This document shows positions 26,777-47,109 of a stretch of 64,000 nucleotides of DNA, piece by piece; the stretch's first letter is position 1, and each line of letters opens with the position of its first letter. Under the pieces are notes generated by a model that did not search any database, was not told the DNA's origin, and worked only from the letters and a program-made list of their open reading frames with translations. The stretch is from the NCBI GenBank assembly GCA_011605725.1, contig JAAOZP010000017.1, positions 186,001 to 250,000 on the forward strand, given 5' to 3'. The stretch is from Nitrososphaerota archaeon (GTDB lineage Archaea > Thermoproteota > EX4484-205 > JAAOZP01). The translations under genes and the position numbers were made by a program.

Positions 26777-28327
26777 CTAGGCTTCAAGCTTCTTAAGCTC
26801 CATGAAATCCTCCTTGAGAGCCCCGTAGAGGCTCTTATAGATTTTATAGAGCTGCCTGTATTTTGAAGCAGCCTCCTGAACAGGCTTAATCGTCTCGCTG
26901 CTCGCCAACCATTCACGTATAACCTCGTAACCCTTAAGGGTCCCTGTTCCCACTCCTGCGAGCAGAGCATCACCGTAGGGTGCGCCTATGCTTGAAGCCA
27001 GATATTCCACATCCCTGTCTAAAACATCCGTTATTATTCTTCTCCAGACTCTCGACCTTGCCCCACCATTGACGAGTATAGCCCTCTTCAGAGGAATCCC
27101 TGTTTCCACGGCTGTTTCAACACAGTATCTTATGGCGTAAGCTATGCCCTCCAGAACAGCCCTATACATGTGAGCCTTAGTATGTTTCAGCGTTAAGCCG
27201 AAGAAAACACCCCTGACATACTCGTCCCACCAGGGCGCTCTTTCGCCGACCATCATGTGTGGAAGGAATATCAGCCCGTCTGAACCGGTTGAGATTTTCT
27301 CAGCCTCCATGTCCAGGATACTGTAGGCGCTTAAGCCAGTCTCTTTCGCAAGCATGTTTTCAACGGCTCCAAGATTGTCCCTGAACCACCTGATCGCATA
27401 GCCAGCAGTTATGATTCCTGCGAAAGAATAGAACTTCCTGTCGTCATACGCAACATGAGAATAGTTTATCAGCTTCGGGGAGAACCTGGGCTCATCCTGG
27501 ATGAAACCGTTGCACACGGATGTGCCAAGCATCATCGCAAGATCCCCGTCTCCAAGAGCCCCGACGCCGAGCGCAGACATCGGCGCGTCTATGCCTCCGG
27601 CGCAGACGGGCGTTCCTTTTGCGAGACCGCTTAGCTCAGCGCCCTCTGAAGAAACCTCGCCGACAACATCCTTAGACATGCTTATCTTCTCCGGGAAAAA
27701 GCTTCTAGGTATGCCCAGGTCGCTCATCAATTCTTCAGCGAACCTTCTCTCCTTAGGGTTGAAAATCCCACCGTAGTTGCCTATTGAAGAATAGTCCACC
27801 GATATTTCTCCAGTAAGCCTGTAAACGCAGTACGCGTTGGGAGTAACCAGCTGGTGGATCCTGCTCCAAACATGCGGCTCATTCCTCTTTATCCAGAGCA
27901 TCTTAGTGTATCCATAGTATGGGTCTATAGTGTTGCAGGTTTCTTTGAAAACTCTCTCCTCCCCTATGTTCTCCCTGACCCATCTACACTCCTCAGTCGC
28001 CCTCCTGTCAGCCCATATTAAGCATGGTCTAAGGGGCTTCATCTCCTTGTCGCAGGGAATACCAGACCCGCCGTAGAGGCTGCTTATGCAGTAGCCAGCT
28101 ATGTCACGCGGATCAATCATCGCCTTCTTTAAAACGTCTTTAATAGTCTGGCATACTGCTTGAAACCATACGTCTGGCCACTGTTCAGCCCAGCCTGTTC
28201 TAAGAGTTATTACGCCGTACTCGGCGGTTGAGCTCGCAACCTCCCTGCCCTCCGCGTCTACAAGAATCGTCTTGGTAGCAGAAGTCCCTATATCCGTACC
28301 GAGAAGGAGTCCTCCCAATCCTGACAC
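26777..28327 (-). CDS. FGGY-family carbohydrate kinase, xylulokinase-like
   Basis: A 516-residue sugar kinase. GTDIGTSATKTILVD near the N-terminus is the first phosphate-binding motif, GGIDAPMSALGVG the mid-protein signature and VNGGARSRVWRRIITDVLD the adenosine segment. FGGY kinases phosphorylate xylulose, ribulose, glycerol or similar. WADRRATEECRWVRENIG resembles xylulokinases. The isomerase gene lies just upstream in the same direction (78 bases), so a ketose made by that enzyme is the probable substrate. The start is GTG; the frame does not extend further up without losing the motif position. Confidence 0.88.
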   Translation of the reverse strand: MSGLGGLLLGTDIGTSATKTILVDAEGREVASSTAEYGVITLRTGWAEQWPDVWFQAVCQTIKDVLKKAMIDPRDIAGYCISSLYGGSGIPCDKEMKPLRPCLIWADRRATEECRWVRENIGEERVFKETCNTIDPYYGYTKMLWIKRNEPHVWSRIHQLVTPNAYCVYRLTGEISVDYSSIGNYGGIFNPKERRFAEELMSDLGIPRSFFPEKISMSKDVVGEVSSEGAELSGLAKGTPVCAGGIDAPMSALGVGALGDGDLAMMLGTSVCNGFIQDEPRFSPKLINYSHVAYDDRKFYSFAGIITAGYAIRWFRDNLGAVENMLAKETGLSAYSILDMEAEKISTGSDGLIFLPHMMVGERAPWWDEYVRGVFFGLTLKHTKAHMYRAVLEGIAYAIRYCVETAVETGIPLKRAILVNGGARSRVWRRIITDVLDRDVEYLASSIGAPYGDALLAGVGTGTLKGYEVIREWLASSETIKPVQEAASKYRQLYKIYKSLYGALKEDFMELKKLEA

Positions 28328-28405
28328 CCTGATTAGAACGCGGCAACAATTTTTAAATTTACCGCGTGAAAAAACGCGAAGGGCAAGCGGGACCTTGCTT
28401 CTGCT

Positions 28406-29536
28406 TCAACCCTTAATGATAATTTTCTTCACGAAGTCTATTGTTTCAGCCTGATCTCCTTTTTCCCTAATCTTCTCAAACTCCTCTCTCCTACTGTATA
28501 TCAGCAGAGCTTTCTTCGCAAGGTTTGCGAAAATCTCTTTTGAAAGATACATGGCTTTCACAGGATCCATCCTGTACGTGAACTGATCCTCGCCGAACCA
28601 GCCTTCGTAACCCGTGTCGACCGCAGCATATATGAAGTCAACCATTCTCCAGATGTCACCTGTGCCAGCAATCCTGTCCTCATCATTACTGTGCAGCTTC
28701 GCCGTGTTAATGTGGAAGTTGACCAGCGGCACTCCGAGCTTCTTCAAAGCATACACCGTCGCAGCCGGCTCTACACCATACATCTGCTCATGACCATAAT
28801 CTATGCATACGCCCATGTTCCTCCCCCCACTCCTCTCGTTAACCGTCTTCGCAACTAGTGCTGCCAGATGGGTTGTAGGAATAACCATGTTGCCTTCCCT
28901 GGGCTCATGAAGCTTAGCCTCTATGCCGAACACGAGGCCCGCCTTCTTAGCCTCCCTGTTTATCATTTCACAGCCCTCTATGAAGAGCTCCAGCTGCCTC
29001 CCGTAGTTCACTTCAAAATTATAGTCCCAGCCATCTGAACCGGGCCAAAGCGCGACGCTGCCACACCCGATCTCCCTGGCTATCTCAACAGCCTGAAAAG
29101 CTATTTGAAGAGCATCCTCCCTTATACTCTTAGACGGGTTTGTAATGCCGCCGAGCTTCCACTTAGGGTCTGTCCAAAGATTAATATTCATATTCGTAGG
29201 GGTTAAACCCAGCTTCTCAAGCTCAGCCTTAACCATGCTTATAACACTCTCATCCCTCCTATAGCTTGAATCTATGAAGAGCACGTCGTGGAGCTCAACC
29301 CCCTTTATCCCAGCCTGCTTAACCCTTCTAAGCTGAGAGATAATGTCGCTCTTGAACTCAGGATTGTCACTATTGTACCCTCTGGTGGCAAACCTATCCA
29401 AGAAGTCTCCAGCAGCCCAGTGTCCAGCTGCAAACCTTATTCCAAAGTCTTCGAAAAACCTGTCAACAGCCTCACCCTCGAGATACCCGGCGTACTCAGC
29501 CTCGAGCTTTCTAAACACCTCCCTACTCGTCTTCAT
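28406..29536 (-). CDS. Xylose isomerase-like TIM-barrel sugar isomerase
   Basis: A 376-residue protein of the xylose isomerase superfamily. Metal and catalytic segments are LVFGIEAKLHEPR (Glu, Lys), GVCIDYGHEQM (Asp, His), VNFHINTAKLHSNDEDRI (His, Asp pair) and GEDQFTYRMDP. The frame runs on to 29635, but I chose the ATG at 29536: the extra codons lie across a TATA-like box (29557-29570) and a neighbouring pseudogene. It probably interconverts an aldose and a ketose and hands it to the FGGY kinase next door. D-xylose/D-xylulose is one option; the specificity is not clear from sequence. Confidence 0.83.
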   Translation of the reverse strand: MKTSREVFRKLEAEYAGYLEGEAVDRFFEDFGIRFAAGHWAAGDFLDRFATRGYNSDNPEFKSDIISQLRRVKQAGIKGVELHDVLFIDSSYRRDESVISMVKAELEKLGLTPTNMNINLWTDPKWKLGGITNPSKSIREDALQIAFQAVEIAREIGCGSVALWPGSDGWDYNFEVNYGRQLELFIEGCEMINREAKKAGLVFGIEAKLHEPREGNMVIPTTHLAALVAKTVNERSGGRNMGVCIDYGHEQMYGVEPAATVYALKKLGVPLVNFHINTAKLHSNDEDRIAGTGDIWRMVDFIYAAVDTGYEGWFGEDQFTYRMDPVKAMYLSKEIFANLAKKALLIYSRREEFEKIREKGDQAETIDFVKKIIIKG

Positions 29537-29556
29537 TTGACTCGGAAACGTTTGGA

Positions 29557-29570
29557 AACTAAATAAAGTT
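29557..29570 (-). promoter_or_regulatory. TATA-like box of the isomerase gene
   Basis: Read on the minus strand, AACTTTATTTAGTT lies about 26 bases before the ATG at 29536, with no ribosome site between. The same TATTTAG core is found in the degraded duplicate at 30030-30040, which supports its role as a promoter. Confidence 0.5.
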
Positions 29571-29603
29571 TTTCCCCAGCCTTGTGGCTTCACATGCATA
29601 TTT

Positions 29604-29895
29604 TTATGCGAGGGGGAATTCTTCATCACCCTCATAATTAAACAGGTCTACACTATCCTCAAAGGGTTCCTCAACCACCTCCTTGACCGTCGCTTGCTCC
29701 AGATAATTCTTTTTAGTAAAATCGATGAACTCGACTACACGGCCATCCCCACCCTCAACCGGAAACCTACGTAATCCTCCACACTCCTAGCTTGAAACCC
29801 CTTTAACCCGAGGGATTCAGCAGCCTAAGCGGGAAAAGCCTGTAGCCCACATCCTGCACCTTCTCCCCCTTTATCACAACCCTCTTCTTAAGCAA
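29604..29895 (-). pseudogene. Acylphosphatase pseudogene with two frameshifts
   Basis: Three consecutive reading frames of the minus strand together encode an acylphosphatase-like protein. From a TTG at 29895 comes KKRVVIKGEKVQDVGYRLF, the V-x-G-x-V-Q-x-V-G-(F/Y)-R signature, ending at a stop at 29805. Then LKGFQARSVEDYVGFRLRVG follows in the -1 frame up to about 29750. Then DGRVVEFIDFTKKNYLEQA and a further part run to a stop at 29604, again shifted by -1. Two single-base losses near 29808 and 29749 explain it. Acylphosphatases cleave carboxyl-phosphate bonds; this copy cannot make a normal protein. Confidence 0.7.
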
Positions 29896-30998: not shown

Positions 30999-31138
30999 CC
31001 TAGCCGGAGGATTAAGCCCGAATAAAACTCGTTTTAGAGCGGATTCCCCTGAAAAATTCGATAGCACGTGTTAAAACATGATGCGTGCTAGAAAGGGTAT
31101 GCTTAAATACCTTTCTAAAGATTCCTCCTCATAGAGTG

Positions 31139-31849
31139 ATGAACAATTTAAAAAAAGGCTTCCTCGAGCTGCTCGACAAGGATAAGGAGTTTCGCTACAC
31201 TGTGGCAGGCTACTTAGGATTGTCTGAGATTTTGAAGAGGCTGGACAGGCTGGAGGAGGGTCAGAACAAGCTGTGGGAAGGCCAGAACAGGCTTTGGGAG
31301 AACCAGAACAGGCTTTGGGAGGAGGTTAAAGCCCTTAGAGAGGGCCAGGAGAAGCTGTGGGAGGAAGTTAAGAGTTTGAGAGAAGGCCAGAACAGGCTTT
31401 GGGAGAACCAGAACAGGCTTTGGGAGGAGGTTAGGGAACTGCGTGCAACTCAGAACAGGCTTGCAACAACCCTAGACAGGCTAACGATTTCTGTTGAAGA
31501 GGAAGCGTTGGATGTAATTAGGCACAGGCTGAAGAACGAGCTTGGGCTGGACGTAGAGCTGAGAAGAATCTTCGTTGGCGAAAGGGAGATAAACGTTTAC
31601 GGTGTCTCAGCCGACACGTGCGTCATAGGCGAGGCGACGGTGAGGCTTGGAACAGGGCTGATACAGGAGCTTGAGGATAAGATAGAGGCCTTAAAAAGGA
31701 TGAGGCCGGAGTTGATAAAGCCGAGAATAATAAAGGTAATCTACACGGACTATGCTTCCCCAAGCGCGCTTGAACTGGCAAAGAAACAAGACGTATGGGT
31801 CCTAAACTGGAGGAGTGACTTCACACCCAGAAGAATAATTCAAGCCTAA
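31139..31849 (+). CDS. Coiled-coil PD-(D/E)XK nuclease-like protein (DUF3782 type)
   Basis: A 236-residue protein. Residues 35-125 form a long coiled coil built from repeats of the type NRLWENQNRLWEEV and LREGQ. The C-terminal 110 residues (VDVIRHRL, VYGVSADTCVIGEATVRLGT, PRIIKVIYTDYASPSALELA) match the restriction-like fold of the archaeal DUF3782 group, in which a Glu-x-Lys-like pair would be catalytic; here the strand reads GEATVR, so activity is uncertain. The frame begins at 31085, but the ATG at 31139 follows a TATA-like TTAAATAC by about 30 bases and is preferred. Function is unknown. Confidence 0.75.
   Translation: MNNLKKGFLELLDKDKEFRYTVAGYLGLSEILKRLDRLEEGQNKLWEGQNRLWENQNRLWEEVKALREGQEKLWEEVKSLREGQNRLWENQNRLWEEVRELRATQNRLATTLDRLTISVEEEALDVIRHRLKNELGLDVELRRIFVGEREINVYGVSADTCVIGEATVRLGTGLIQELEDKIEALKRMRPELIKPRIIKVIYTDYASPSALELAKKQDVWVLNWRSDFTPRRIIQA
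31277..31433 (+). repeat. Exact 52-base direct repeat inside the coiled-coil gene
   Basis: Positions 31277-31328 and 31382-31433 are identical over 52 bases and 105 bases (35 codons) apart. Both encode GQNRLWENQNRLWEEV and neighbours. DNA identity without silent changes points to recent duplication or recombination and allows copy-number change by slippage. Confidence 0.85.
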
Positions 31850-31946: not shown

Positions 31947-34900
31947 TCACGGCTCCCGATAAACTGGTGCGACACTAGTTATTGACGGTGCAAACTTGTT
32001 CAGAAACATCCTGTAATACATCAAGCATTCTTCAACAGCACTTTTAACAGAACTGCTAACCGTGCGCTTGTAAATGTCTCCGCCGACGATCACTTTGAAT
32101 TCCTGGGAGAGAATGAGCGTGCTGCCCGAATATATCTCGATAACACCATTCCTAACTATGGGCCTACTGGCCACGTTAAGGCTTGCAACACCCTTAGTGT
32201 TGGCTGCAGCACTGGCCAAGATGTTTCCAGCTTCATCCTTGAGGCGGACAGTCCAACCGGGTGTGAGCCCAGTCACGTTCACAAACCTTGGGTCAGCATC
32301 TGCGGAAGCTATGAAGTCGTCGAAAAACGCTGAAAGATAATTTTTATCCCTAGTCTCATCGTATATGCTGAACCCAACCCGGCTAACCTGCAGCGTGTTA
32401 TTGGTCCCGCTTAAAGTGCTCACCTGCGTGCCCCCGCTGCTGTAAACAGTCAGCCTCATCGCACCCGTGTTAACGTTACGGCTTCCGAGGAATAAGAACC
32501 AAGTGTTATCGGTCAAGCCTCCTAAGTTTCCAGTCCGAGCTACATTGGTCCATCTAGGCGGCGAGCCGGCGTAGCACCATATCCCCAGCCGCCTGTTTCC
32601 TGTGTCACGGTAGAACTCCAGCGTGTAGAAACCATTATCGGAATTGATCATCGTCAAGCCGGCGTGTTGATTCCTGTCCGTAGTGCTGAACAGTTCTTTC
32701 GAAAACACGTATATCGTTGTTGCCTCGGGCGGCGTATTGTTCGTGAAGTATGCGACGTGCGCGCCGCCCCAGCTTCCAGAAGGCGCGTTGGCGGAAACCT
32801 GTATGTAGCCGGAGGGGTTCCAGCTCCAGTTTCCCGTGTTTGTGGCGAGCCTCCCGGAGGAGAACGGGTCTGTGGAGAAGTCGTCGTAGATGAAAGCACT
32901 CCTCTTTGCTAGCACAAGCTCCCCTCCCACGGTGCCCTGCGGGTTTTCAACCGTGCGGAAGGGTAATGCATTCCGGTCAGTGCCGTTATACCATAGGCTG
33001 GCGTTGATAAACGGGGTAGCCGCTATCCCGCCCTCCGTTAGGAAACCAGCCACTTTAAACTGTATTTTGTTCGCAGGATCAGTGTCGTATGGCGTGGTAG
33101 ATGCCCTACTCCAGAAAATAGCGTCATACTCCATCACCCGCCTCTGGTAGTCAGCTGTTGTCCAGACCCACAGCTGGTCCCTTCTCACTCCCCCTATGAA
33201 GTAGCTCCGGAGCTCGTCGATGAAGTCTTCAGAGGCAAAGATCGCCATGCCCGCGTACTCGTTGTAAAGCACAGTCCAGTTACCGTATGCTTGCGCAGAC
33301 GGAATGTTAGCCGGGCTGTTGTTCCTATCCCTATGCATTATGTTCCTAACGTTGGAGTAGGTTCCGTTAACTATACTCGGGTTCTTGACGGAGGTTGCGA
33401 AAGACCCCCATTTGACTCTCAGCGGGCTTCCAGCATCTGTTTCAGTCCCGCCTATCATACCCATCAGAGACAAGTAGGGGTAATCCATGCGGACGCTTCT
33501 AAGCCACGTCGCGTTTGCAACGTAAAGGAAGTATGAAACGTTGTATGGAATGTAGAGGATGGTTTCGTAGTGCATCTCGTCGTAGCTGACAGGCCCCTCC
33601 GGAGGCCTCTCCTGAGTCCTGTTAGACTTTCTGAAAGCAACCAGTCTAACCGGGGCCTCGGCAACAAGGACGCCACCCTTATCCTGCGGCCTTGGAAGTA
33701 TCATCCAGTCGTCAGCCGGAATCTTCCTCGGGAACCACCATCCCCCGCTGGGCATCCGGTAAACATCGTAGCCAAGCAGGACGTACTCCACATGAGTCCC
33801 GCTCCTAGGGTCTTGGATGCTTATCGACCAGTCTACCCAGTAGCTCGTAGGGCTTGCCAGGAGAGTCAACACGTATTTACCGTTGTCCACTGTGGCGAAA
33901 GCCCCGCTCAACGTCATGTGTAGACGGTACTCCGGCTCCCTGACGTCAGCGTCCTCAAGCCAGGTCAATAAAACCTTTTGAAGGCTGCATCCCGGCGGAT
34001 AGTTCAGCTCGAAAACCAGCTTAGACCCGTTCATAATCCTCTTCCTCCACTCTAGGAACTTGTCGCTGTTCGGCCAGAGATACCTGTCGTCCCAGACCTC
34101 GGTCTGGTAAGGCACCTCGTAGAAAGCAGGGTCGCTAGGCCAGTTTCTAGTCGCCATCACCCTGACCTGCTTAACGGGGGGAAGGGGGATCGGAGGATTG
34201 TTCTCAGGCGATGAAAGCCTAGTGTTATACCAGTACATCGTCCCGTTGGGCAGGAGTTCAAACACGTATGTCTCCTTAACTTTAGACGGGTCTCCAGTGT
34301 AGAACGGCTCAACAGCGTTCGCCTGTATAGCGTACTCTATCCCGGCGTAGGTGTAGGACTCGACGATTATCCCCCTGTTGTCCTGAACCCTGACCAGGAT
34401 GAACTGGTAGTAGCCGGGTTGATGCGGCTGGTTGCCCTGCTGACCCTCCCATCTCCAGAAGAGCCTCACGCTGGTGTTGCTGGGATCGTAGAATCGGGGT
34501 GTGATGCTGATAGTGTAGTTGCCGCCACCGTTGTAAGTCAGCGTCATCTCGTTTACGGAAACCCTTCTCCAGCAGTACACGCCAGGTGGTACAGTTGGGT
34601 CGAACAAGTATATTTCGAAGTTCCCAGCCCTCAGGTCGCTAACGGGGATACTGTTCTCCCTGAGAACGATCACGTTCAACTCTAGGATCCCATCCTTCTC
34701 CCTGGGGATTACTGAGGTTATCGTGAGGTTTAGCAGAAGGATGTGTGCGGCCCTCCACCCGACTACTCCCCGGTAGGTAGCGTCTACGCTTATCTCAGCA
34801 CCTATGGCTGAAATACTGTTAGGCCTGTACCAGAAAAGCTTGAAAAGCCTGTCCTCCAGCCTTCTCTCAGGATAGTTGAAAACATAGTTTCTCGGCTTAT

Positions 34901-35306
34901 CCGGCTCCCCATCCCGAGTAAGATTGTAGATCGTAAGCGTCATGCCCCTAGCACTCTGCACCGGCTCATCTATCAGCCTTGTCTCAATATGCAGGCCTTT
35001 ACCCGCGTAGGCAGCCTGCGTCGAGATAAGCCAGTATGAGAAAGTCAGGTTAGCAATCCTCCTTGGAACATCCATTTCAGCAGTAAGATTGTATTTCGCG
35101 GTCGCGTTAGCAAGAATCCTTGTAAGCACCCTTCTGAAATCAGAGTCTATGTTCATAACTATCTCCCTGCTCGGATTATAGTCGAAGAACAGGTGCTGGA
35201 TTGAGGTTGAGTATATTATTGTCGAGACTAGGAGGATAATCGTTATGAGAGTGATGCTCATCACAAGCATTATCTGGCCCCTGTCCCAGTCTAAGCGCTT
35301 AATCAT
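31947..35306 (-). CDS. Giant pilin-like surface protein with lectin-like domain
   Basis: A 1,119-residue protein. After 10 or so residues comes DRGQIMLVMSITLITIILLV, a class III (pilin) signal with the hydrophobic helix; cleavage after Gly is expected. The rest is extracellular, rich in Asn-x-Ser/Thr sites, Tyr, Trp and Pro. Residues about 800-990 (FIYDDFSTDPFSSGRLATNT, GLTMINSDNGFYTLEFYRD) look like a LamG/concanavalin-type sugar-binding domain, followed by a small beta domain near 1,000-1,060. I chose the ATG at 35306, with AGGAGGTGG seven bases before it, rather than the ORF's first codon 45 bases earlier. It is the last and largest gene of the pilus operon, likely an adhesin. Confidence 0.8.
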   Translation of the reverse strand: MIKRLDWDRGQIMLVMSITLITIILLVSTIIYSTSIQHLFFDYNPSREIVMNIDSDFRRVLTRILANATAKYNLTAEMDVPRRIANLTFSYWLISTQAAYAGKGLHIETRLIDEPVQSARGMTLTIYNLTRDGEPDKPRNYVFNYPERRLEDRLFKLFWYRPNSISAIGAEISVDATYRGVVGWRAAHILLLNLTITSVIPREKDGILELNVIVLRENSIPVSDLRAGNFEIYLFDPTVPPGVYCWRRVSVNEMTLTYNGGGNYTISITPRFYDPSNTSVRLFWRWEGQQGNQPHQPGYYQFILVRVQDNRGIIVESYTYAGIEYAIQANAVEPFYTGDPSKVKETYVFELLPNGTMYWYNTRLSSPENNPPIPLPPVKQVRVMATRNWPSDPAFYEVPYQTEVWDDRYLWPNSDKFLEWRKRIMNGSKLVFELNYPPGCSLQKVLLTWLEDADVREPEYRLHMTLSGAFATVDNGKYVLTLLASPTSYWVDWSISIQDPRSGTHVEYVLLGYDVYRMPSGGWWFPRKIPADDWMILPRPQDKGGVLVAEAPVRLVAFRKSNRTQERPPEGPVSYDEMHYETILYIPYNVSYFLYVANATWLRSVRMDYPYLSLMGMIGGTETDAGSPLRVKWGSFATSVKNPSIVNGTYSNVRNIMHRDRNNSPANIPSAQAYGNWTVLYNEYAGMAIFASEDFIDELRSYFIGGVRRDQLWVWTTADYQRRVMEYDAIFWSRASTTPYDTDPANKIQFKVAGFLTEGGIAATPFINASLWYNGTDRNALPFRTVENPQGTVGGELVLAKRSAFIYDDFSTDPFSSGRLATNTGNWSWNPSGYIQVSANAPSGSWGGAHVAYFTNNTPPEATTIYVFSKELFSTTDRNQHAGLTMINSDNGFYTLEFYRDTGNRRLGIWCYAGSPPRWTNVARTGNLGGLTDNTWFLFLGSRNVNTGAMRLTVYSSGGTQVSTLSGTNNTLQVSRVGFSIYDETRDKNYLSAFFDDFIASADADPRFVNVTGLTPGWTVRLKDEAGNILASAAANTKGVASLNVASRPIVRNGVIEIYSGSTLILSQEFKVIVGGDIYKRTVSSSVKSAVEECLMYYRMFLNKFAPSITSVAPVYREP

Positions 35307-35308
35307 AC

Positions 35309-35776
35309 TCACCACCTCCTGGCGAGCTCCAGGCGAATCTTCAAAACCCATCTCCTCCTAGTTGTGTAAGTTATTTCAGCTCCGGCAGCCTCCTTCGAAA
35401 GCCTGAAGTCCTCGGGCGAAGCGTTGGAAACACTGCCCAGCGACTCCTCTTCAACAATATCTCCCTTCTTACTCATGTTGCAGACAGTCATGTTGTAGAG
35501 AGTGTTTGCGGGAAGGAGGGCGTTCAGCATGTTCTTCATCAAGCCCTCCCAGCCGGGCCTTACCCATGTTGAGTTGAAGACAACCTCGTCGAAAACCTCC
35601 TTGTCGGCGAGGCTCATGAGGAAGTCGTAACAGTATTTTTCAAGCTCATCCCTAGCCTTAGCACTATACGGGTCCGGTGTCCTCGTCAGGTTTATCATGC
35701 TCCACATCGCCACCGCTATTATCCCGCTTGCCAGAAGCGCTTCAACGATTCTCATCTGACCCCTGCTGTCCATCAT
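35309..35776 (-). CDS. Pilin-like protein of the type IV pilus operon
   Basis: A 155-residue protein starting MMDSRGQMRIVEALLASG, a class III signal with the charged n-region, Gly at the cleavage site and a hydrophobic helix of about 20 residues. The mature part is small, with one probable disulfide pair (Cys at about 48 and 99) and two Asn-x-Ser/Thr sites. It is likely a minor pilin. Its stop is two bases before the ATG of the giant protein, and its start overlaps the preceding gene by four bases, so the genes are coupled. Confidence 0.75.
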   Translation of the reverse strand: MMDSRGQMRIVEALLASGIIAVAMWSMINLTRTPDPYSAKARDELEKYCYDFLMSLADKEVFDEVVFNSTWVRPGWEGLMKNMLNALLPANTLYNMTVCNMSKKGDIVEEESLGSVSNASPEDFRLSKEAAGAEITYTTRRRWVLKIRLELARRW

Positions 35777-36963
35777 TCAGCCCACCTCCAAACCCTTATT
35801 TCGAAAACATAGTGGAAGGAGCCTATTTTAACCATCCTTTTCAAGACGCTAGTCTTAATGTTTCCCGAGGCCATTCCAGTCTGGCATATCGTTACGGATG
35901 GCGGCCTGTAGAAGGTGGCTACGTAGTATTTACCCCTATACTTGACAGGCATTATCATGAAGGCAACGTCCTCGTCAATCGTGCTCGTAATCCTGTAGAC
36001 ACGGTAGTTCTTAGAGCCCTTGTTTATAACCAGGCCGCTCTCACCGTTAGTCTCGTTTCTGAAAGTGCTTAGGTAAACGTAGTACGGCGGGTTGGCTAGG
36101 GCAGTCTGGTTCCTCAAGTGTCTGGCAGCCGGTATCTCCAGAGAACCCTCTATGCTTAAAATAAGGTAGTCGTCAACCGTTGTCCCGTTCAGAATATCCG
36201 TCTCGCCGAGCATGGATGAGTTAACAGCCCTAATCCCGAAGTAGTCCGCGTAAACTATGAGGGCTGAAAAACTCTTCTGAATATTCTTAACCCCTGTTTC
36301 AGCATCTCTTAAAAGGTCTGTGAAATCCAAGCTGGCTCTACCATCGATTCTCACAGGACTCGTCTTGAAAACGTAGTCGACGTAGCACACATCCTGACCC
36401 TGATCCCTATCAATAATCATGAAGACGTATACCCCGGTTAAGTTAGCGCTTACCGCCGGCCTCCCCTCGTAAGTCTTAACCGTAACCTCAACCATGCTGG
36501 GGACCTGAACACCACCTTTAAAATTATAGTAGCCCACGACGCTCGCCGTCAGGTTTAAAGCAGGAGTAATCCTTATGCTGAAGCCATACTTGTTTTCAAG
36601 CCCCAGCAGCCTGGCTACGGTCCAGGCATCTATCTGAACAGTCTCCGGAAGCTGGCCCCCACCAATGTTTATCATCCTGAGAACCTTATCCATGTCAAGC
36701 ACATATGGCTCGCCCCCTGCCTTCTGAAGCCCGAATGAGAGAAGCTGACTGCTATCTTGAATTTTAAGAATATCCCCCCAGTCCTCAGGAATACCGGTGC
36801 TTAGAAGAACCTTATCCATAATGGCTTGAGCAACCTCCTCCAGCTGGTGCTCCCTCGCAGTCGTGAAGGAGAGATAGGCTGTTGGAATAATGTACCCCAT
36901 GAAGGTTACGAGTATGAGTAGGAGGATGAAGAATGCGAACATGTTGTCGATGGTGACGTGCAT
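35773..36963 (-). CDS. Membrane-anchored secreted protein of the pilus operon
   Basis: A 396-residue protein with one N-terminal hydrophobic helix (MFAFFILLLILVTFMGYIIP) and a large external part, which contains several Asn-x-Ser/Thr sites and three cysteines. It has the pilin-like topology, but the start lacks a clear Arg/Lys-Gly cleavage site, so it may stay anchored. No known domain. The gene overlaps its downstream neighbour and lies three bases from the upstream one, so it belongs to the pilus operon, perhaps as a minor pilin-like or assembly factor. Confidence 0.72.
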   Translation of the reverse strand: MHVTIDNMFAFFILLLILVTFMGYIIPTAYLSFTTAREHQLEEVAQAIMDKVLLSTGIPEDWGDILKIQDSSQLLSFGLQKAGGEPYVLDMDKVLRMINIGGGQLPETVQIDAWTVARLLGLENKYGFSIRITPALNLTASVVGYYNFKGGVQVPSMVEVTVKTYEGRPAVSANLTGVYVFMIIDRDQGQDVCYVDYVFKTSPVRIDGRASLDFTDLLRDAETGVKNIQKSFSALIVYADYFGIRAVNSSMLGETDILNGTTVDDYLILSIEGSLEIPAARHLRNQTALANPPYYVYLSTFRNETNGESGLVINKGSKNYRVYRITSTIDEDVAFMIMPVKYRGKYYVATFYRPPSVTICQTGMASGNIKTSVLKRMVKIGSFHYVFEIRVWRWAE

Positions 36964-36966
36964 CAG

Positions 36967-37500
36967 TCAACCACCCCCCTTGTTCACGAGCCTTCCAAGC
37001 CCAACCACTATGGCTCCGTCAACCCTCCTAGCCCACACCACGGGGTCGCTAACACCGGAGTGGAGAACACCCGTATAGTTTACAAGGTGGGAGCCGACTT
37101 GAAAAACACCGTCCCCGGTTTCAACAGTCACGTCGACACCCGGGTCCTTCCAAAGCGGTGAGGAAACGTTTATCGCCCTGTTCTCCTCCAGGTAGGCGAC
37201 TAGAAACCAAACCCCGTCAACCTGTTTAAACTCCATCGCGTATCCGTGTCCAGACAGCGAAACCGGGAGGCTGATTGGCTTGTAAAGATCAACGTTGCTC
37301 CTGGCCCTTTGACACATCACGTATAGCCCAGCAACCTCGTAAGCAACCTGATTAGCAACCTCGCCAAGCCTCACTCTAAGGGAGTCGATGGAAACCCAGC
37401 GGTACACCATTGAAAACATTAGTAGAAATATGAAGAGAACAGCGTATAGGGCTGTTGTCAGAATTACTGTTTCAAAAGGTGTTGAAGGCATTCTTCTCAC
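36967..37500 (-). CDS. Small anchored pilin-like protein of the pilus operon
   Basis: A 177-residue protein with a hydrophobic segment at 10-33 (TVILTTALYAVLFIFLLMFS) and an extracellular beta-rich remainder ending in a glycine-rich tail. The charged MRRMPSTPFE before the helix resembles a pilin leader, but without the usual Gly. There is no known domain. It overlaps the preceding gene by four bases and precedes the 396-residue protein by three, both on the same strand. Confidence 0.72.
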   Translation of the reverse strand: MRRMPSTPFETVILTTALYAVLFIFLLMFSMVYRWVSIDSLRVRLGEVANQVAYEVAGLYVMCQRARSNVDLYKPISLPVSLSGHGYAMEFKQVDGVWFLVAYLEENRAINVSSPLWKDPGVDVTVETGDGVFQVGSHLVNYTGVLHSGVSDPVVWARRVDGAIVVGLGRLVNKGGG

Positions 37501-38309
37501 CTGATGGATATCTCGACCTCAACAATGTTCAGAAAGACCAGTGTCCCGTTACCACCCTGGTCTGTAGAATACTCGTTGAAGTATGCTCCTCTTTCAACAG
37601 TTATCGTGATGCGCGTTGAATCGATAAGCTGTATAACCCTGCTCGTCACGTTCACAACCCTTGCGGAAACATCGTAAACATTGCTCCCGCTGAAAGTCCC
37701 CGGGACAATCCTGACATAGGTTATTTCAACCACGTTAAGAGGATCCCAGTTAACCCCGTCCCTCGTAGCGTTGACGATGCCTGACGGAACAACCCTAACC
37801 CGGCCGAAATCCATTATGACCCAGGCTCCCTGCTCACGCTTCAAGTACACCCATCCCAGGGGAGCAGGGTTCTCCGGGCTGACTATCAGGCATTCCGCCG
37901 GCATAAGGGTTTGAACACCCTTTAAAACCTGGAAGTCGAGCGAAGAAACTCCTCCACCACCCCTGAACCTTACGAGGGTAACGTTGTCCTCGAAAACGGT
38001 TTCACCTTCAACCTTTATCCTCAGCTTTTCAGCACCAGGTGTCACGGCAAGCCCGCCGCTGCTTACAGCGAACCTCGTGTAGGCTGCTGAACCCTTAGCG
38101 AGGCTTAAACCCTCAATCATCTGAGCTAGGCTGATCATGCTCGCCTTACCGTTTTCAAACTCCGTGGCCTGAGCCTGCATGGAGAGGTTAAGCTGGGCGA
38201 AGAAAACCCCGGCGACGATCATGCCGAGCGTCACAGTAACCAGCATAACCGTTGCCACAACCTCTGAAACACCCTTCCCGTCAAGCCTAGTCTTAGCCAA
38301 TTTTTCCAC
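37497..38309 (-). CDS. Pilin/archaellin-like protein
   Basis: A 270-residue protein. GKGVSEVVATVMLVTVTLG near the start is a classical archaeal class III leader: Lys-Gly, then Val-Ser-x-Val and a hydrophobic helix. The family of such N-terminal pilin domains (DUF1628-like) is typical for archaeal pilins. The mature part has several Asn-x-Ser/Thr sites and no cysteines. It starts inside the end of the membrane platform gene (17-base overlap), which couples the two. Confidence 0.82.
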   Translation of the reverse strand: MEKLAKTRLDGKGVSEVVATVMLVTVTLGMIVAGVFFAQLNLSMQAQATEFENGKASMISLAQMIEGLSLAKGSAAYTRFAVSSGGLAVTPGAEKLRIKVEGETVFEDNVTLVRFRGGGGVSSLDFQVLKGVQTLMPAECLIVSPENPAPLGWVYLKREQGAWVIMDFGRVRVVPSGIVNATRDGVNWDPLNVVEITYVRIVPGTFSGSNVYDVSARVVNVTSRVIQLIDSTRITITVERGAYFNEYSTDQGGNGTLVFLNIVEVEISIR

Positions 38310-40098
38310 CGCCAGTCGGCACTGGGGCGAAGGAGTAGTATGGTGCTAGCACTATCGTCGCCAGGGTGAAGATGAGGAGCATCAGGGCGTGGAAGAAGCC
38401 TGAAGAAGTCTCTCCGTACGCGATCTTGCCGCCGACTAGACCCATCATGTACACGTGGATTATGACCGGCGGGAGGAGGAGCTGCACAAGGTCTCCGAAA
38501 GCCATTGAGCGTCCAGCCATTAGAAGCATGGACCTGAAGAACGTTAAGAGGGCTATGACTGTTACGACCAGCACACCAGTACCTATGTAGGGTATCATGA
38601 GAAGCGGCTTGAGCTCAGACCTTTTCTCCTTCTCCATGAGTATTATAGACTCGTTGAACCTGGCTAAGGTTTCAAGAGTCTCGGGAGTACCTCCACCAAC
38701 CTCGATAGCGTCGAGAAGCAGGAACATGCTTATCTTCGTAAGCCATGACCTAACCTTCTTGGAGAAAGTCCTATATATTTCAGCATGGCTTATCCCCCAC
38801 GAGATCTGCGTAGCCATAGTCTTAATATGTTTCGAAAGATTGCCGTAGTTCCTCTCCGACAGGGAGATTATGCATTTCTCAGGGCTCAGCCCAGACTTCC
38901 TTATCTCAACAAGATCCCTCAGGAAGCCTGCGAAACCAGTGTCCATACCCCTCTCCTTGAAATTAATGTACATCCTGTAGGCAACCGCTGGGAGTGAAGC
39001 GATGGAAAGAGCAAGAATTAGCCCTATTGAGGGCTCGTAGCCACGTTCAAGGCCGAGATAGTTGTTAAGCCAAGTTATGAAGCCGCTTAGAAAGTTGAAA
39101 GGCGGGATCTCTTTTAAACCTGGAGCAAGGAAGGAGACGCAGAACCCAGGTATCAGCAGAGCCATTATGGGCGTAGCTGTAGCGGCGAAAACAATGTAGG
39201 GAGAATTGTCCTCCATCGGGTATTTCGGCTGAACAACATCTATGAGCCAGAGGAACAGGATGGAGAAGAAGGGTAGGAAAGCATAGCTGAACAGTATGAA
39301 GGACATTATGTTTCCGAATATTCCTCCCCCGGCTCCGGCTACAAGCTCCCCTATCGACATTTGGACAGCGTAAATAGTGTATATGCCTAGCAGGAGGAGT
39401 ATTGCGAAAACTATGTAGACCTCCATGAGCTGCCCAAGCCTCCCGCCTATAAGCTTAAGGTTTTCAAGCCTCTCCTGGAAGAGAAGCTCAGTCCTACGGA
39501 GAAGATAGTGGACAACGTCCCCACCAGTCTTAAGCGTTGAAGCATATCCCAGGAGGAGCTCCCTGAACTCCTTGGAGGGAAGCTTCTTACCAATCTCCTC
39601 CAACGCTGTAACAGGATCGTAGCCAAGACCCCTAACCATGATGTCTAGAAGCTTAGCAGTTTCGGAGAAAGTTGGGAGAAGAGGGACGCGTGAAAGCCTC
39701 ATTATGCTGACGTAGGGAGAGATTCCTCCTGTCGACATTACTGCAGTATAGGCAGCAGCATACGGAACCTCTGAGGAAAGCGAGGCCTTAATGCTTGAAA
39801 TCTTCATCCTGGGCCAAGCGACTCCGAGGAGGAAGACGATGACCGGGAGGCAGAGGAGAAGCACAGGGATAAGGTAGAGCTCGAAACCAATGTTCACAAC
39901 AATCAGGCTGTAGCTGACGATCAGTATGCTTGACAACGCTACTGAGACGATTGCTGTTATGAGCGTCGCCAAGAGCACTATCGAGCCGTAGGCCCTCGGG
40001 TATATTCTTATGCCTGAGGCCTCAAGGTCTCCACACATCTTTGCAACCCTGTCTCCAAGCGGGCCGAAGAGCCATGCGGCGAAGCTCGATATGGACAA
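38293..40098 (-). CDS. Type IV pilus platform membrane protein (TadC/ArlJ family)
   Basis: A 601-residue membrane protein with two copies of the type II secretion F domain, each rich in charged residues and followed by membrane segments. Typical phrases are PYVSIMRLSRVPLLPTFSE with RGLGYDP in the first half and EVGGGTPETLETLARF in the second. About nine hydrophobic segments are seen. It is the platform on which the ATPase assembles pilins. The start is TTG, with a TATA-like GAATATAAG at about 40123-40131. It is the first gene of the leftward pilus operon and faces the rightward pilin gene. Confidence 0.88.
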   Translation of the reverse strand: MSISSFAAWLFGPLGDRVAKMCGDLEASGIRIYPRAYGSIVLLATLITAIVSVALSSILIVSYSLIVVNIGFELYLIPVLLLCLPVIVFLLGVAWPRMKISSIKASLSSEVPYAAAYTAVMSTGGISPYVSIMRLSRVPLLPTFSETAKLLDIMVRGLGYDPVTALEEIGKKLPSKEFRELLLGYASTLKTGGDVVHYLLRRTELLFQERLENLKLIGGRLGQLMEVYIVFAILLLLGIYTIYAVQMSIGELVAGAGGGIFGNIMSFILFSYAFLPFFSILFLWLIDVVQPKYPMEDNSPYIVFAATATPIMALLIPGFCVSFLAPGLKEIPPFNFLSGFITWLNNYLGLERGYEPSIGLILALSIASLPAVAYRMYINFKERGMDTGFAGFLRDLVEIRKSGLSPEKCIISLSERNYGNLSKHIKTMATQISWGISHAEIYRTFSKKVRSWLTKISMFLLLDAIEVGGGTPETLETLARFNESIILMEKEKRSELKPLLMIPYIGTGVLVVTVIALLTFFRSMLLMAGRSMAFGDLVQLLLPPVIIHVYMMGLVGGKIAYGETSSGFFHALMLLIFTLATIVLAPYYSFAPVPTGGGKIG

Positions 40099-40419
40099 GA
40101 CTAAGTATAATCTTTGAAGTGTTTCTTATATTCTTTTTCCCCGTATTCATATAAGGACATGCATGTCGGAAACACGACAACCGGTGTTTCGCTCTAGTGA
40201 CGAAAATCGCACTCCGTCAATCTAGAGTATGAAGACGAGTCTTTTAAACAAGTGCTTTTCAGAAGAGTTTTACAGTTCAATATTGTTCAATATTGTTCAA
40301 AACGGTTCAGCAAGGTTTAGGGAACCTGTTCTTCGAGAGCTGTAAGTCGGTTTTTAACGTTAAAAAAATTTAAATACTATCTTTAATACAGGTTTAATAC
40401 GGAAAGAGGTGAAACAGGC
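40099..40419. other. Divergent regulatory region of the pilus locus
   Basis: No gene in 321 bases. It holds promoters for both arms (GAATATAAG on the left arm, AATTTAAATACT at about 40366-40377 for the right arm), an inverted repeat TGTCG-GAAACA-CGACA (40164-40179) and a phased direct repeat at 40275-40319. Confidence 0.7.
40275..40319 (+). repeat. Five 10-base-phased GTTCA/GTTTA elements, probable regulator site
   Basis: GTTCA begins at 40275, 40285, 40295 and 40305, and the variant GTTTA at 40315; the spacing is exactly 10 bases each time. The first three copies are followed by AATATT, AATATT and AAACG. One helical turn per repeat places all on one DNA face, as in cooperative operators. 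The array lies about 100 bases before the pilin start and 175 before the platform gene start. Confidence 0.75.
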
Positions 40420-40911
40420 ATGAAAATGCTTAACGACAGGAGGGGCGTAAGCCCAGTGATAACGACAGTAATCATCGTCGCAGTAGGCATAACCATCGCG
40501 ATAGCGGTAGCACTATGGATGACAGGCCTAGTGGGAGCATTCATGGGGTATGAGAAGGTTGAGATTAGAAGCTGCTTCGCAGCGCCATATGGAACTAATG
40601 GGTGGAACATATCCATTACTTATTTAAACACTGGATCGACACCTGCCAAGGTAGATAATGTTTTCATTAATGACGTTCCATACAATAGCTGGACTGGCGG
40701 GACCATATCCTTGAAGTGGGCTGAAGAGGGAGGCTCAACAGGCACTACTCTTCCTGCACCTGCGAATATAGGTAAAAGCGTGAATCTTGCCATAACTATA
40801 TCTGCACCTGTTACATTCGGCAACCAGAAGCTAGTGAGCGGTGTCACGGTTACAATTAAGCTTCACTCGACAGGTGGCAAGGAATACTATACTAGTGTAG
40901 TCCTTCCTTAA
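40420..40911 (+). CDS. Type IV pilin, probable major subunit
   Basis: A 163-residue protein: RRGVSPVITTVIIVAVGITI is a textbook archaeal class III signal followed by a 20-residue hydrophobic helix. The mature part has Cys, Gly/Thr/Ser-rich beta segments and ends in YYTSVVLP. It belongs with the archaeal DUF1628-type pilins. GAGGTG precedes the ATG by about eight bases, an unusually good ribosome site in this genome and a sign of high expression. A TATA-like box is at 40366-40377. It lies alone in front of the ATPase gene. Confidence 0.88.
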   Translation: MKMLNDRRGVSPVITTVIIVAVGITIAIAVALWMTGLVGAFMGYEKVEIRSCFAAPYGTNGWNISITYLNTGSTPAKVDNVFINDVPYNSWTGGTISLKWAEEGGSTGTTLPAPANIGKSVNLAITISAPVTFGNQKLVSGVTVTIKLHSTGGKEYYTSVVLP

Positions 40912-41083
40912 GATAGCCCCTCTCCCCCCATCCCTCTTTTTCTCACGTTCTTAAGCCGGTGGCCTAGTATTGAATGTTAAAACCGGGTTGGTTTGGAGCA
41001 TTCCGGACTCCCTATTAGGCGGTTTGGAAACAGTATTGTTTAACAAACTTTATAAAACTCTTCCCGCTTCGAATCATCGTCAA

Positions 41084-42736
41084 ATGGGTTCTGCGAAGAC
41101 TGAGGAGAAGAAGGATAATCCTGCTGTCGCAGAGGCTAAGGTTGAGCCTAAGCCTGTGGCGGTTGAGAAGAAGGAGGAGAAGCCTAAGCCTGTGAAGGAG
41201 GAGAAGAAAAAGAAGAAGGAGGAAGAGAAGGAATTAGTTGAATACGTTTTCGAGCCCGTGCCTGTTAACGCTAAGCCTATAGACGAGTACTGGATTGAAG
41301 AGCCTTTCGTAAGAATCCTGATAGTTCCAATCCCGGGCAGGGGTGGTGAGAAAGGATACTTCGTAGACGAGGTTTCTCTCGACAAGACTGAGAGGAGTGC
41401 TTTCAATAGGCTTAAGGATATTCTGAGCAGGGAGCTTAAGCCTCCTGAAGACATGTCTGTGGAGGCGAGGAGCTACGTTATGGAGGAGGCTCGAAGACTG
41501 ATGAAGAAGTATAGGAGCATACTGGGCTCCCTGAACGAGGAGTCCATGAGGAAGGTTGAATACTATATTAGGAGGGATCTTATAGGCTACGGGCCGATAA
41601 ACCCGATCGTGGAGGATAAGAATGTTGAAGACATTTCTTGCGACGGTATTGATAAGCCTGTTTACGTTTGGCACAGGAGGTATGAGAGCCTCCCTTCAAA
41701 CCTGAGGATCGTCGACAAGGGTTATTTCAACGACTTCATTATTAAGCTGGCGCACTTCGCTGGGAAGCATATTAGCGCAGCATTCCCAATCGTGGACGCG
41801 ATGCTCCCTGGGAGGCATAGGCTTGCAGCAACCTATGGGGACGAGGTTTCAACGTTCGGCTCAACCTTCACGATAAGGAAGTTCAGGGAGGAGCCTTTCA
41901 GCATCATCGACCTGATTAAGCTCGGCACGCTAAGCCCCTCTTTAGCAGCTTACTTCTGGTTCATTCTTGACAATAGGCTTACCGTCATGGTTATAGGCGG
42001 CACGGGCGCGGGTAAAACGTCTTTCCTAAACGCTTTAACAAACCTTTTCAAACCAGGGTTGAAGATCGTCACCGTCGAGGAGACTGCTGAGCTGAACATT
42101 CCGCATGACAACTGGGTCCAGTTCGTAACCAGGGAGAGCTACGGCCTCGGAACCTCTAAGATAGGAGAGATAACGATGTACGACCTGGTCAAGACCTCTT
42201 TAAGATATAGGCCTGACTACCTTATCGTCGGAGAGATCAGGGGTGCTGAAGCCTTCGTCTTGTTCCAAGCCATGGCGACGGGTCACGGTGGCCTTAGCAC
42301 TGTTCACGCTGAGAACATTGACTACGCTATTAAAAGGATGACCAGTCCGCCTATGAACATCGCAGAGTCATACATTCCGCTTATGAACGTCGCCTGCCTC
42401 ATCGAGAGGGTTGTCCTGCCTAAGAAGGCTGGAGTACCGTTTGGAAGAAGAGTTAGGCACGTCTGGGAGCTTGACCCCGAGGGGAACAGGATTACGATTG
42501 CACACTGGGACCCGATGGAGGATGTTCACGAGGTTGACTTCAGCAGGTCGGTGCATCTTCCCAATGTGTGCAGGAAGATAGGCATGCCTCCGGACTGGTA
42601 TGTTAGGGAGCTGCAGGTTAGGGAGAGCGTTATAAGGTGGATGATGGATAACAACGTGACGCATTTCAGGGATGTTGCGAGGGTTGTGACGGAGTTCCAT
42701 GTTAAGAGGGCTGAAGTGCTTTCAAGACTAAGGTGA
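41084..42736 (+). CDS. Type IV pilus/archaellum assembly ATPase
   Basis: A 550-residue secretion ATPase. Residues 1-55 are a very charged Lys/Glu/Pro linker; then comes the N-domain. The ATPase core has Walker A VIGGTGAGKTSFLNAL, an Asp box and ETAEL, Walker B YLIVGEIRGAEAFVLFQAMA, and the His box GHGGLSTVHAE. It powers pilin insertion by the platform protein. The frame extends 38 codons further (40970), but an AACTTTATAAAAC promoter at about 41044-41056 lies within that part and the ATG at 41084 is about 30 bases later. The peptidase gene follows after one base. Confidence 0.9.
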   Translation: MGSAKTEEKKDNPAVAEAKVEPKPVAVEKKEEKPKPVKEEKKKKKEEEKELVEYVFEPVPVNAKPIDEYWIEEPFVRILIVPIPGRGGEKGYFVDEVSLDKTERSAFNRLKDILSRELKPPEDMSVEARSYVMEEARRLMKKYRSILGSLNEESMRKVEYYIRRDLIGYGPINPIVEDKNVEDISCDGIDKPVYVWHRRYESLPSNLRIVDKGYFNDFIIKLAHFAGKHISAAFPIVDAMLPGRHRLAATYGDEVSTFGSTFTIRKFREEPFSIIDLIKLGTLSPSLAAYFWFILDNRLTVMVIGGTGAGKTSFLNALTNLFKPGLKIVTVEETAELNIPHDNWVQFVTRESYGLGTSKIGEITMYDLVKTSLRYRPDYLIVGEIRGAEAFVLFQAMATGHGGLSTVHAENIDYAIKRMTSPPMNIAESYIPLMNVACLIERVVLPKKAGVPFGRRVRHVWELDPEGNRITIAHWDPMEDVHEVDFSRSVHLPNVCRKIGMPPDWYVRELQVRESVIRWMMDNNVTHFRDVARVVTEFHVKRAEVLSRLR

Positions 42737-42737
42737 A

Positions 42738-43508
42738 TTGTCCTACTGGCTCTGGCTGGAGAATGCTCGCAACATAGTCTCCATAATACTCCTCTCCATA
42801 GCCTCGATCCAGGATGTTAAGAGCAGGGAGATAGATGACCGTGTATGGATCGTCTTCACAGCCTCAGCCCTACTCATAAATATTCTAAGTGTTTTAAACG
42901 GCTCCGTCGAGCCTTTCTGGTGGATTGTTTTCGCAGGCCTTCAGTCAGGCCTCTTCCTCCTCCTGTATTACGGCGGTGTCTATGGGGGTGCTGACGCAAA
43001 GGCCCTTATGTGTCTAAGCCTAATGTACCCTTCCTCCCCAACGGGTTTCCTGACTGACCTGAGCATGGCGAGGCTTCCCGTCGCCTTCTCAACGATGAAC
43101 AACGCCCTATTGTTGACAACCCTATACCTCCCTTTAAACCTGTTTTGGAACCTCCACGTTAAGCTTAAAGGGGTTGAGCTTTTCAAAGGCTTGGGGAAGG
43201 AAAGCGTGTTGCGGAGGATTGCAGCCCTCCTCCTTCTCAGGAAGGTTAGGTTTTCACAGTACCGTGCTGAGAACACTAGGTTCGTTCTCGCCGAGAGGAG
43301 GAGCAGGAGCGGGCTTAGGAGGATAGTCTTCGCGAGGAGGCTGGACGAGGATAAGGCTGAACAGTCTTTCGACGAGGATGAGCATGTTTTCACAAGCTTC
43401 CTCATGCCCCTGCAAACCCTGATACTTCTCGGCCTTGTTGCAAGGCTCTTCTACGGCGATATTCTGCTCTCGCTCTCGCTCCTAGCCGCCAGCCGCCTAG
43501 CAGGGTAA
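42738..43508 (+). CDS. Prepilin peptidase, A24 family
   Basis: A 256-residue membrane aspartyl protease. The two catalytic Asp segments are SIQDVKSREIDD (about 22-33) and YGGVYGGADAKALM (about 78-91), the GxGD-type motif in the archaeal variant GGAD. Seven or so hydrophobic segments surround them, with a long charged cytoplasmic loop near 180-215. It cleaves the class III leaders of the pilins encoded here. The TTG start directly follows the ATPase stop. A second, degenerate relative is at 46453. Confidence 0.85.
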   Translation: MSYWLWLENARNIVSIILLSIASIQDVKSREIDDRVWIVFTASALLINILSVLNGSVEPFWWIVFAGLQSGLFLLLYYGGVYGGADAKALMCLSLMYPSSPTGFLTDLSMARLPVAFSTMNNALLLTTLYLPLNLFWNLHVKLKGVELFKGLGKESVLRRIAALLLLRKVRFSQYRAENTRFVLAERRSRSGLRRIVFARRLDEDKAEQSFDEDEHVFTSFLMPLQTLILLGLVARLFYGDILLSLSLLAASRLAG

Positions 43509-46452: not shown

Positions 46453-47109
46453 ATGGATTTAAACCAGTTTCTACAAGCATTCGCATGCTTTAAGACGGTT
46501 CTTGAAATACTTCTGCTCTGCCCAGCTGTTTTCCAAGACCTGGAGAATAGGGAGCTTGACGCCTCCGCGTGGCTCCCAATCCTCTTGCTAGGGGTTTCAG
46601 CCTTAACCCTTGAGCTAGCCTCAAACATGCTCCTAGAAACTGTTTTAAAGACTGTTCAAACCCTGAGCCTCCTAGGATTGCTGCTTCTCCTAGGTCTCTA
46701 CGGGCCTGGGGACGCGTTGATACTGGTAGGCATATGCCTAACCCATGTTTCAACAACTAGCCCCCTGCTGCAAGGCAGCCTCCTGAGGTTTTCCAACCCT
46801 GATTTCAGCCTGACTGTTCTTTTGAACGCTGAAATCCTGTCTTCAGCAACTGTTGCTTCAAACCTTTTCCACAACCTGCGCTCAGGAGCCTGGAGCTCCT
46901 CCCAACCTGGAGAGCCTTTTAGAAGGAGGGTTTCTCGTATGCTGCTGCTCAGGGCTGTGGGTGAGGAGGAATCGTCTCGAAAAAAGCTTGCCCAGAGTAC
47001 TCTTAGCAGGAAAGTATTCGTTAAAAAGACTGTTCCCCTAACTTTTTTCATCCTTATAAGTTACGGGGTGACGCTTCTCTTCGGAAGCCTCGTTCCACTC
47101 CCAGCGTAG
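46453..47109 (+). CDS. A24-type prepilin peptidase-like membrane protein
   Basis: A 218-residue membrane protein with about five hydrophobic segments. FQDLENRELDASAW (about 28-41) and LYGPGDALILVGICL (about 80-94) have the spacing and context of the two catalytic Asp motifs of A24 peptidases, the latter a clean GxGD. The rest is shorter and more divergent than in the peptidase at 42738. It may process other class III proteins (for example archaellins) or act on a different group. The gene is alone between agmatinase and arginine decarboxylase genes. Confidence 0.65.
   Translation: MDLNQFLQAFACFKTVLEILLLCPAVFQDLENRELDASAWLPILLLGVSALTLELASNMLLETVLKTVQTLSLLGLLLLLGLYGPGDALILVGICLTHVSTTSPLLQGSLLRFSNPDFSLTVLLNAEILSSATVASNLFHNLRSGAWSSSQPGEPFRRRVSRMLLLRAVGEEESSRKKLAQSTLSRKVFVKKTVPLTFFILISYGVTLLFGSLVPLPA

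Follow-up and report, generated by a model that had tools for sequence, protein, structure and literature searches.

A probable modular minor pilin carrying a predicted concanavalin-like module in a type IV pilus locus of Brockarchaeota

How archaeal pili recognize surfaces is largely unknown so far. In Streptococcus sanguinis the minor pilin PilC is a modular protein that combines an Ig-like module with a lectin one and binds glycans (PMC9934059), and a "cut and paste" use of modular pilins has been described for bacteria (PMC10191384). For archaea, the large DUF2341 proteins encoded in type IV pilus loci have been proposed to be pilus-tip adhesins, and the loci of Desulfurococcales and Thermoproteales have been reported to hold "minor pilin sets," in which further pilin-like components and large secreted proteins accompany a TACK-type ATPase and TadC; in the portion of that article available to us, the origin of these sets is given as not traceable, and modular heads or grafting are not described (Makarova 2016, PMC4858521). 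A literature search found no archaeal pilus lectin. Here we analyze a type IV pilus locus of a hot-spring archaeon belonging to the Brockarchaeota, situated in a 64-kb stretch of contig JAAOZP010000017.1 (the window, to which all unlabelled positions refer), and in particular the large protein, BIG, that is encoded by the final gene of its pilin cassette. An earlier account made from the letters of the DNA (the sequence-only reading) had proposed that the locus was complete and that BIG was a giant lectin-like pilin.

The closest named relatives of BIG (75% identity) come from metagenome-assembled genomes (MAGs) of Candidatus Brockarchaeota. The protein and its parts are as follows.

31947..35306, minus strand: BIG, a modular pilin-type protein of 1,119 amino acids and the final cassette gene, with its start codon ATG at 35306.
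35277..35306, minus strand: class III leader of BIG (residues 1-10, MIKRLDWDRG^Q), a motif kept in relatives over a fivefold range of length.
34437..35276, minus strand: N-terminal part of BIG, of pilin type and reaching to about residue 290, common to all relatives by the BIGN profile.
32985..34292, minus strand: MID domain of BIG (about residues 339-774, 435 residues), which also occurs in BIG of several other families and, in part only, in one further family.
32052..32966, minus strand: lectin-fold module of BIG (residues 781-1085), predicted from a structure model and Foldseek to be a concanavalin-like sandwich plus a small beta domain.
31950..32051, minus strand: C-terminal tail of BIG (LMYYRMF...PSI..V..Y), which is conserved and directly follows the core in module-free relatives.

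This architecture resembles that of PilC and PilB of the S. sanguinis type IVa pilus, in which adhesive domains are likewise grafted on a class III pilin moiety and further minor pilins are encoded alongside; the beta-sandwich of PilC is of the lectin type (PMC9934059), and the corresponding fold of the BIG module is a predicted one. The cassette of the window differs in having an archaeal platform and ATPase, a far larger protein, five subunits and heads that vary and move between subunits, and no sequence relation between BIG and PilC or PilB was found or expected.

The class III pilin signal that had been pointed out in the 1,119-residue protein is indeed there (DRG^QIML). It lies in front of the only hydrophobic segment of BIG (residues ~8-31), and the protein has no C-terminal anchor. 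Under a strict pattern the leader is kept as [KR]G^Q in 33 of 44 relatives, most of the others reading xGQ, and the relatives range from 245 to 1,314 amino acids. Searches of BIG against Pfam, NCBIfam, PHROGs and, by sequence, the PDB gave nothing significant (Pfam GH43_C2 reached E = 0.15); no PilY1 family domain was significant in Pfam, NCBIfam or PHROGs, and DUF2341 was absent by Pfam.

The C-terminal region, which had been called LamG/concanavalin-like, was modelled from ten relatives. The model is all-beta (pLDDT 78, pTM 0.80), and Foldseek returned 282 PDB matches at E ≤ 0.001, among them soybean agglutinin and other legume lectins, GH43 xylosidases and thrombospondin (E of about 1e-6 to 1e-5), as well as LNS-type domains. 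The C-terminal domain of GH43 xylosidases has a concanavalin-like fold. TM-scores normalised to the query were low (0.33-0.40) because the modelled stretch contains two domains. The predicted fold of the module is thus concanavalin-like, as proposed.

Relatives in the same genus carry the module (76%, 76%, 76% and 49% identity, full length), as does one fragment. The nearest family having BIG, represented by two genomes, has proteins of 768-775 amino acids without it, and these keep the final ~30 residues of BIG: the local alignment scores were 56 and 60, whereas the highest values among 5,000 shuffles were 40 and 37, none of the shuffles reaching the observed score. Because the tail is kept beside the core in these module-free relatives, which are natural built-in controls, the module is read as an insertion between core and tail, gained by the forebear of the window's genus unless the relatives have lost it. 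A contrast in BIG length within the genus (376 versus 935 amino acids in G247 and G390) was dropped, since the short protein stops at a contig edge (L105; L and G numbers are locus and genome labels, and f6 and f28 family codes, of this analysis).

A profile of the module had matches in 52 of 398 genomes. Its occurrences on pilus cassettes are of three kinds: on BIG in the window's genus; on the last cassette gene in f6 (two genomes, L037 and L147); and in f28 on p177, another cassette subunit (L110:3816-6098 and L117:9122-11407, 760-761 amino acids). In the fused f28 proteins p177 is followed by a stretch reading like Ig-type repeats and then by the module. BIG of L110 and L117 is short (274-279 amino acids) and lacks MID; in related cassettes p177 has about 170 residues and BIG is mostly long. 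Approximately unbiased tests rejected a single clade for the modules of the window's genus and f6 (p = 0.022), of the window's genus and p177 (p = 1.4e-5), and of f6 and p177 (p = 0.012). These results indicate that the module was grafted onto the cassette independently at least three times, on two kinds of subunit. Across the relatives, heads are seen to be fitted, swapped and moved between subunits, as in bacteria making pili into specific adhesins, and the pattern suggests that archaea independently treat their minor pilins in the "cut-and-paste" manner known from bacteria.

Besides these settings, the module is carried by further proteins with pilin-like beginnings and by secreted proteins encoded next to S26 signal peptidases, and the nearest kin of the BIG module are S26-linked proteins of the window's own genus (L033 and L034, 100/99 support). 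From this variety of surface proteins, and from the S26-linked nearest kin, it follows that the module moves among surface proteins; the sequence-only reading had missed this mobility, as it had the insertion and the existence of module-free large relatives. As a separate observation, L033, L034, L035, L036, L158 and L163 contain clusters in which small secreted proteins occur together with S26-like signal peptidases and a module protein. These clusters could possibly be donor-strand filaments of the bundling-pilus type; the small proteins beside the peptidases had no PDB match by sequence, and we do not claim that they are TasA or bundling pilins. We also observed in f28 a second type of pilus-like locus (L150, L154, L156 and L157), with genes for platform-like proteins of ~290-300 amino acids and pilins, which encodes a pilin-leader protein with the lectin-fold module at its end.

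Searches with Pfam and NCBIfam identified a complete archaeal type IV pilus gene set in the window. The genes other than BIG are these.

35309..35776, minus strand: p155, pilin-like minor subunit (motif RG^QMRIVEA; weak DUF7288 match).
35773..36963, minus strand: p396, membrane-anchored cassette protein, assigned by cassette order and by its profile in relatives.
36967..37500, minus strand: p177, membrane-anchored cassette protein, assigned by cassette order and relatives.
37497..38309, minus strand: p270, pilin-like minor subunit (motif KG^VSEVV).
38293..40098, minus strand: platform protein of the TadC/ArlJ/UpsF type (two T2SSF domains, Pfam E = 1.9e-21).
40420..40911, plus strand: probable major pilin, UpsA-like, 163 amino acids (RRG^VSPVITTVI).
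40970..42736, plus strand: pilus assembly ATPase (T2SSE, Pfam E = 1.8e-35).
42738..43508, plus strand: prepilin peptidase A24 of the FlaK/PibD type (Pfam A24 E = 3.7e-11).
46453..47109, plus strand: second A24 prepilin peptidase, 218 amino acids, 3 kb from the first and beyond the interval reported at the outset.

The sequence-only reading had placed its genes correctly, and its complete locus is borne out by Pfam for platform, ATPase and peptidase, with the pilin in addition; the strong ribosome site it ascribed to the pilin is a GAGGTGA just before the ATG. Of the "three other pilin-like or anchored proteins" it listed, the kind was right but the number is four between platform and BIG. The minus-strand genes run platform, p270, p177, p396, p155 and, last, BIG; neighbours overlap by 4 or 17 bases or have 2-3 bases between them, so that the six appear packed as in one transcription unit. 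A class III signal is found on the major pilin, p270, p155 and the BIG family. In the p396 family (for example at 35773-36963) the N-terminus, MHxxxE/DY, abuts a membrane helix, like a leaderless pilin, and p177, with the N-terminus MPxPVxSHxIGT, resembles p396 in this leaderless look. The genome has one copy each of the platform gene and the 163-residue pilin, two A24 peptidases, both inside the window, and three T2SSE matches, of which the sole strong one is the ATPase of the locus. Given the single platform and the sole strong ATPase, any pilus machine handling BIG would be this one, with the caveat that the 2.23-Mb assembly is 93% complete.

BIG was also correctly linked to the pilus operon: the order platform-p270-p177-p396-p155-BIG was seen again in about 35 inspected loci, platform first and BIG last, often with the ATPase in front, and a p396 profile had matches in 106 of the 398 phylum genomes (56 of 163 genera). 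Both a predicted lectin-like fold and an operon link in relatives were thus found, the lack of which had been named beforehand as speaking against the sequence-only reading. For genes away from contig edges, the coefficient of variation in length was 0.06 for platform, 0.05 for p270, 0.15 for p396, 0.54 for p155, 0.65 for p177 and 0.46 for BIG, some lengths being affected by MAG breaks and split genes. At L113:5387-7854, for instance, BIG occupies two adjacent frames (466 and 375 amino acids) that jointly span MID, a frameshift or an assembly error.

Large adhesin-like proteins in archaeal pilus loci are already known (Makarova 2016, PMC4858521), and the statement that known archaeal pili use small subunits was overstated, since large adhesin or minor-pilin candidates are among those reported there. 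The DUF2341 proteins of that survey and BIG are both large and encoded in archaeal type IV pilus loci, and they differ in that BIG of the window lacks the domain; the positional counterpart of BIG in G046 (1,314 amino acids) ends in Ig-like repeats and DUF2341 (E = 6.5e-23), which ties BIG to them. The minor pilin sets of Desulfurococcales and Thermoproteales are possibly the same kind of cassette. The platform, pilin and ATPase match UpsF (3.8e-22), UpsA (2.1e-5) and BasE (5.2e-70) of the Sulfolobales Ups, Aap and Bas systems in NCBIfam, but all fall far under the curated cut-offs, and hence the locus is not one of these systems. Haloarchaeal pilus families gave sub-threshold matches in the window (DUF7288, E = 0.23; DUF7289, E = 0.018), and DUF7261, likewise matched below threshold in a relative (E = 3.5e-4), had no match in the window's genome. 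By description, the cassette is like the PilHIJK or GspHIJK tip complex with PilC/PilY1 of type IVa pili and type II secretion systems, a small minor-pilin set bearing an adhesive head; PilY1, however, is a separate non-pilin protein, whereas the head in the window is a covalent part of a pilin. The Glu5 criterion for tip pilins was judged uninformative in archaea.

We consider it probable that BIG is a modular minor pilin, because its leader is conserved despite the variation in length, the cassette order is conserved and the single hydrophobic segment is N-terminal. We infer that an A24 peptidase probably cuts the class III leader, that the N-terminal helix is then assembled by the genome's single pilus machine together with p270, p177, p396 and p155, and that the resulting small five-protein complex would most likely sit at the tip of a filament built from the 163-residue pilin. 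The ectodomain, consisting of MID and the inserted module, would form an exposed adhesive head, one that probably binds glycans, and by analogy BIG would most likely act like S. sanguinis PilC. Several observations weigh against this picture. The canonical class III cleavage motif is absent from p177 and p396; concanavalin-like folds frequently bind no sugar; and the majority of cassettes are without the module, so that lectin binding by itself cannot account for what BIG basically does. In a model of a module-free relative, moreover, the core reached a pLDDT of 48.7 and MID was poorly modelled; residues 1-300 were partly confident (a helix at 10-41, with helices and then beta strands). Foldseek matches of this core and MID model to antibodies and complement were judged meaningless.

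The size of BIG, and the anchored look of p177 and p396, which lack the leader consensus, could instead mean that BIG is an adhesin held in the envelope by its membrane anchor, using a pilin-type leader, cut or uncut, outside any filament. In Makarova 2016 (PMC4858521), too, proteins of S-layer-like and adhesin type are reported next to archaeal pili, with incorporation unproven. We think an envelope-held adhesin unlikely, as the leader motif is strongly conserved, BIG keeps its place at the end of the pilin cassette in different families and its shortest relatives (about 245-290 amino acids) are of ordinary pilin size. In type II secretion systems the genes run in the order gspG-K. A run of five linked pilin-like genes that ends with the largest resembles that order, and in a lineage described as a polysaccharide degrader the cassette might form a pseudopilus that primes or drives secretion, BIG being a GspK-like cap whose module docks or binds a substrate such as secreted glycoside hydrolases; the typical UpsA-like major pilin in the locus, our failure to find any secretion-specific gene, and the mostly extracellular binding roles of concanavalin-like folds make this quite improbable.

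A further question, compatible with BIG as a minor pilin, is whether the module is a structural or protein-binding domain, serving for example biofilm or partner-cell contacts, rather than a lectin. Thrombospondin and LNS-type domains are among its fold matches, and it occurs in the S26-linked secreted clusters, which may be matrix filaments; legume lectins and GH43 xylosidase C-terminal domains match equally well, however, and we regard a non-lectin role as possible though somewhat less than likely. Returning to BIG as a modular minor pilin, we would put forward tentatively, as possible rather than probable, a broader scheme in which type IV pili of Thermoproteota have at their tip a conserved complex of five subunits, whose slot for an interchangeable head received at least three grafts of the module on different subunits, head duty being movable from BIG to p177 and heads being shared with secreted, possibly donor-strand-type filament systems, so as to form a swappable adhesin repertoire.

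Finally, xylulokinase-like (FGGY) and xylose-isomerase-like genes of the XylB and XylA types adjoin the pilus locus (26777-29635, minus strand), and such genes are neighbours of BIG in the related genomes of L026 and L027 as well. Brockarchaeota have been described as able to degrade xylan, in an account in which pili go unmentioned (PMC8065059). With these genes adjoining and a lineage credited with xylan degradation, a polysaccharide ligand is plausible, the likeliest being of plant or microbial origin given the xylose-using lineage, and an inserted lectin-fold module in this setting yields the direct prediction that residues 781-1085 bind glycan. A gene resembling alpha-L-fucosidase also lies nearby in L026 and L027. 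Adjoining the end of BIG, at 31085-31849 on the plus strand, is a gene for a coiled-coil protein with direct repeats (EGQNKLWEGQNRLWENQNRLWEE), and similar genes lie near in L024 and L040.

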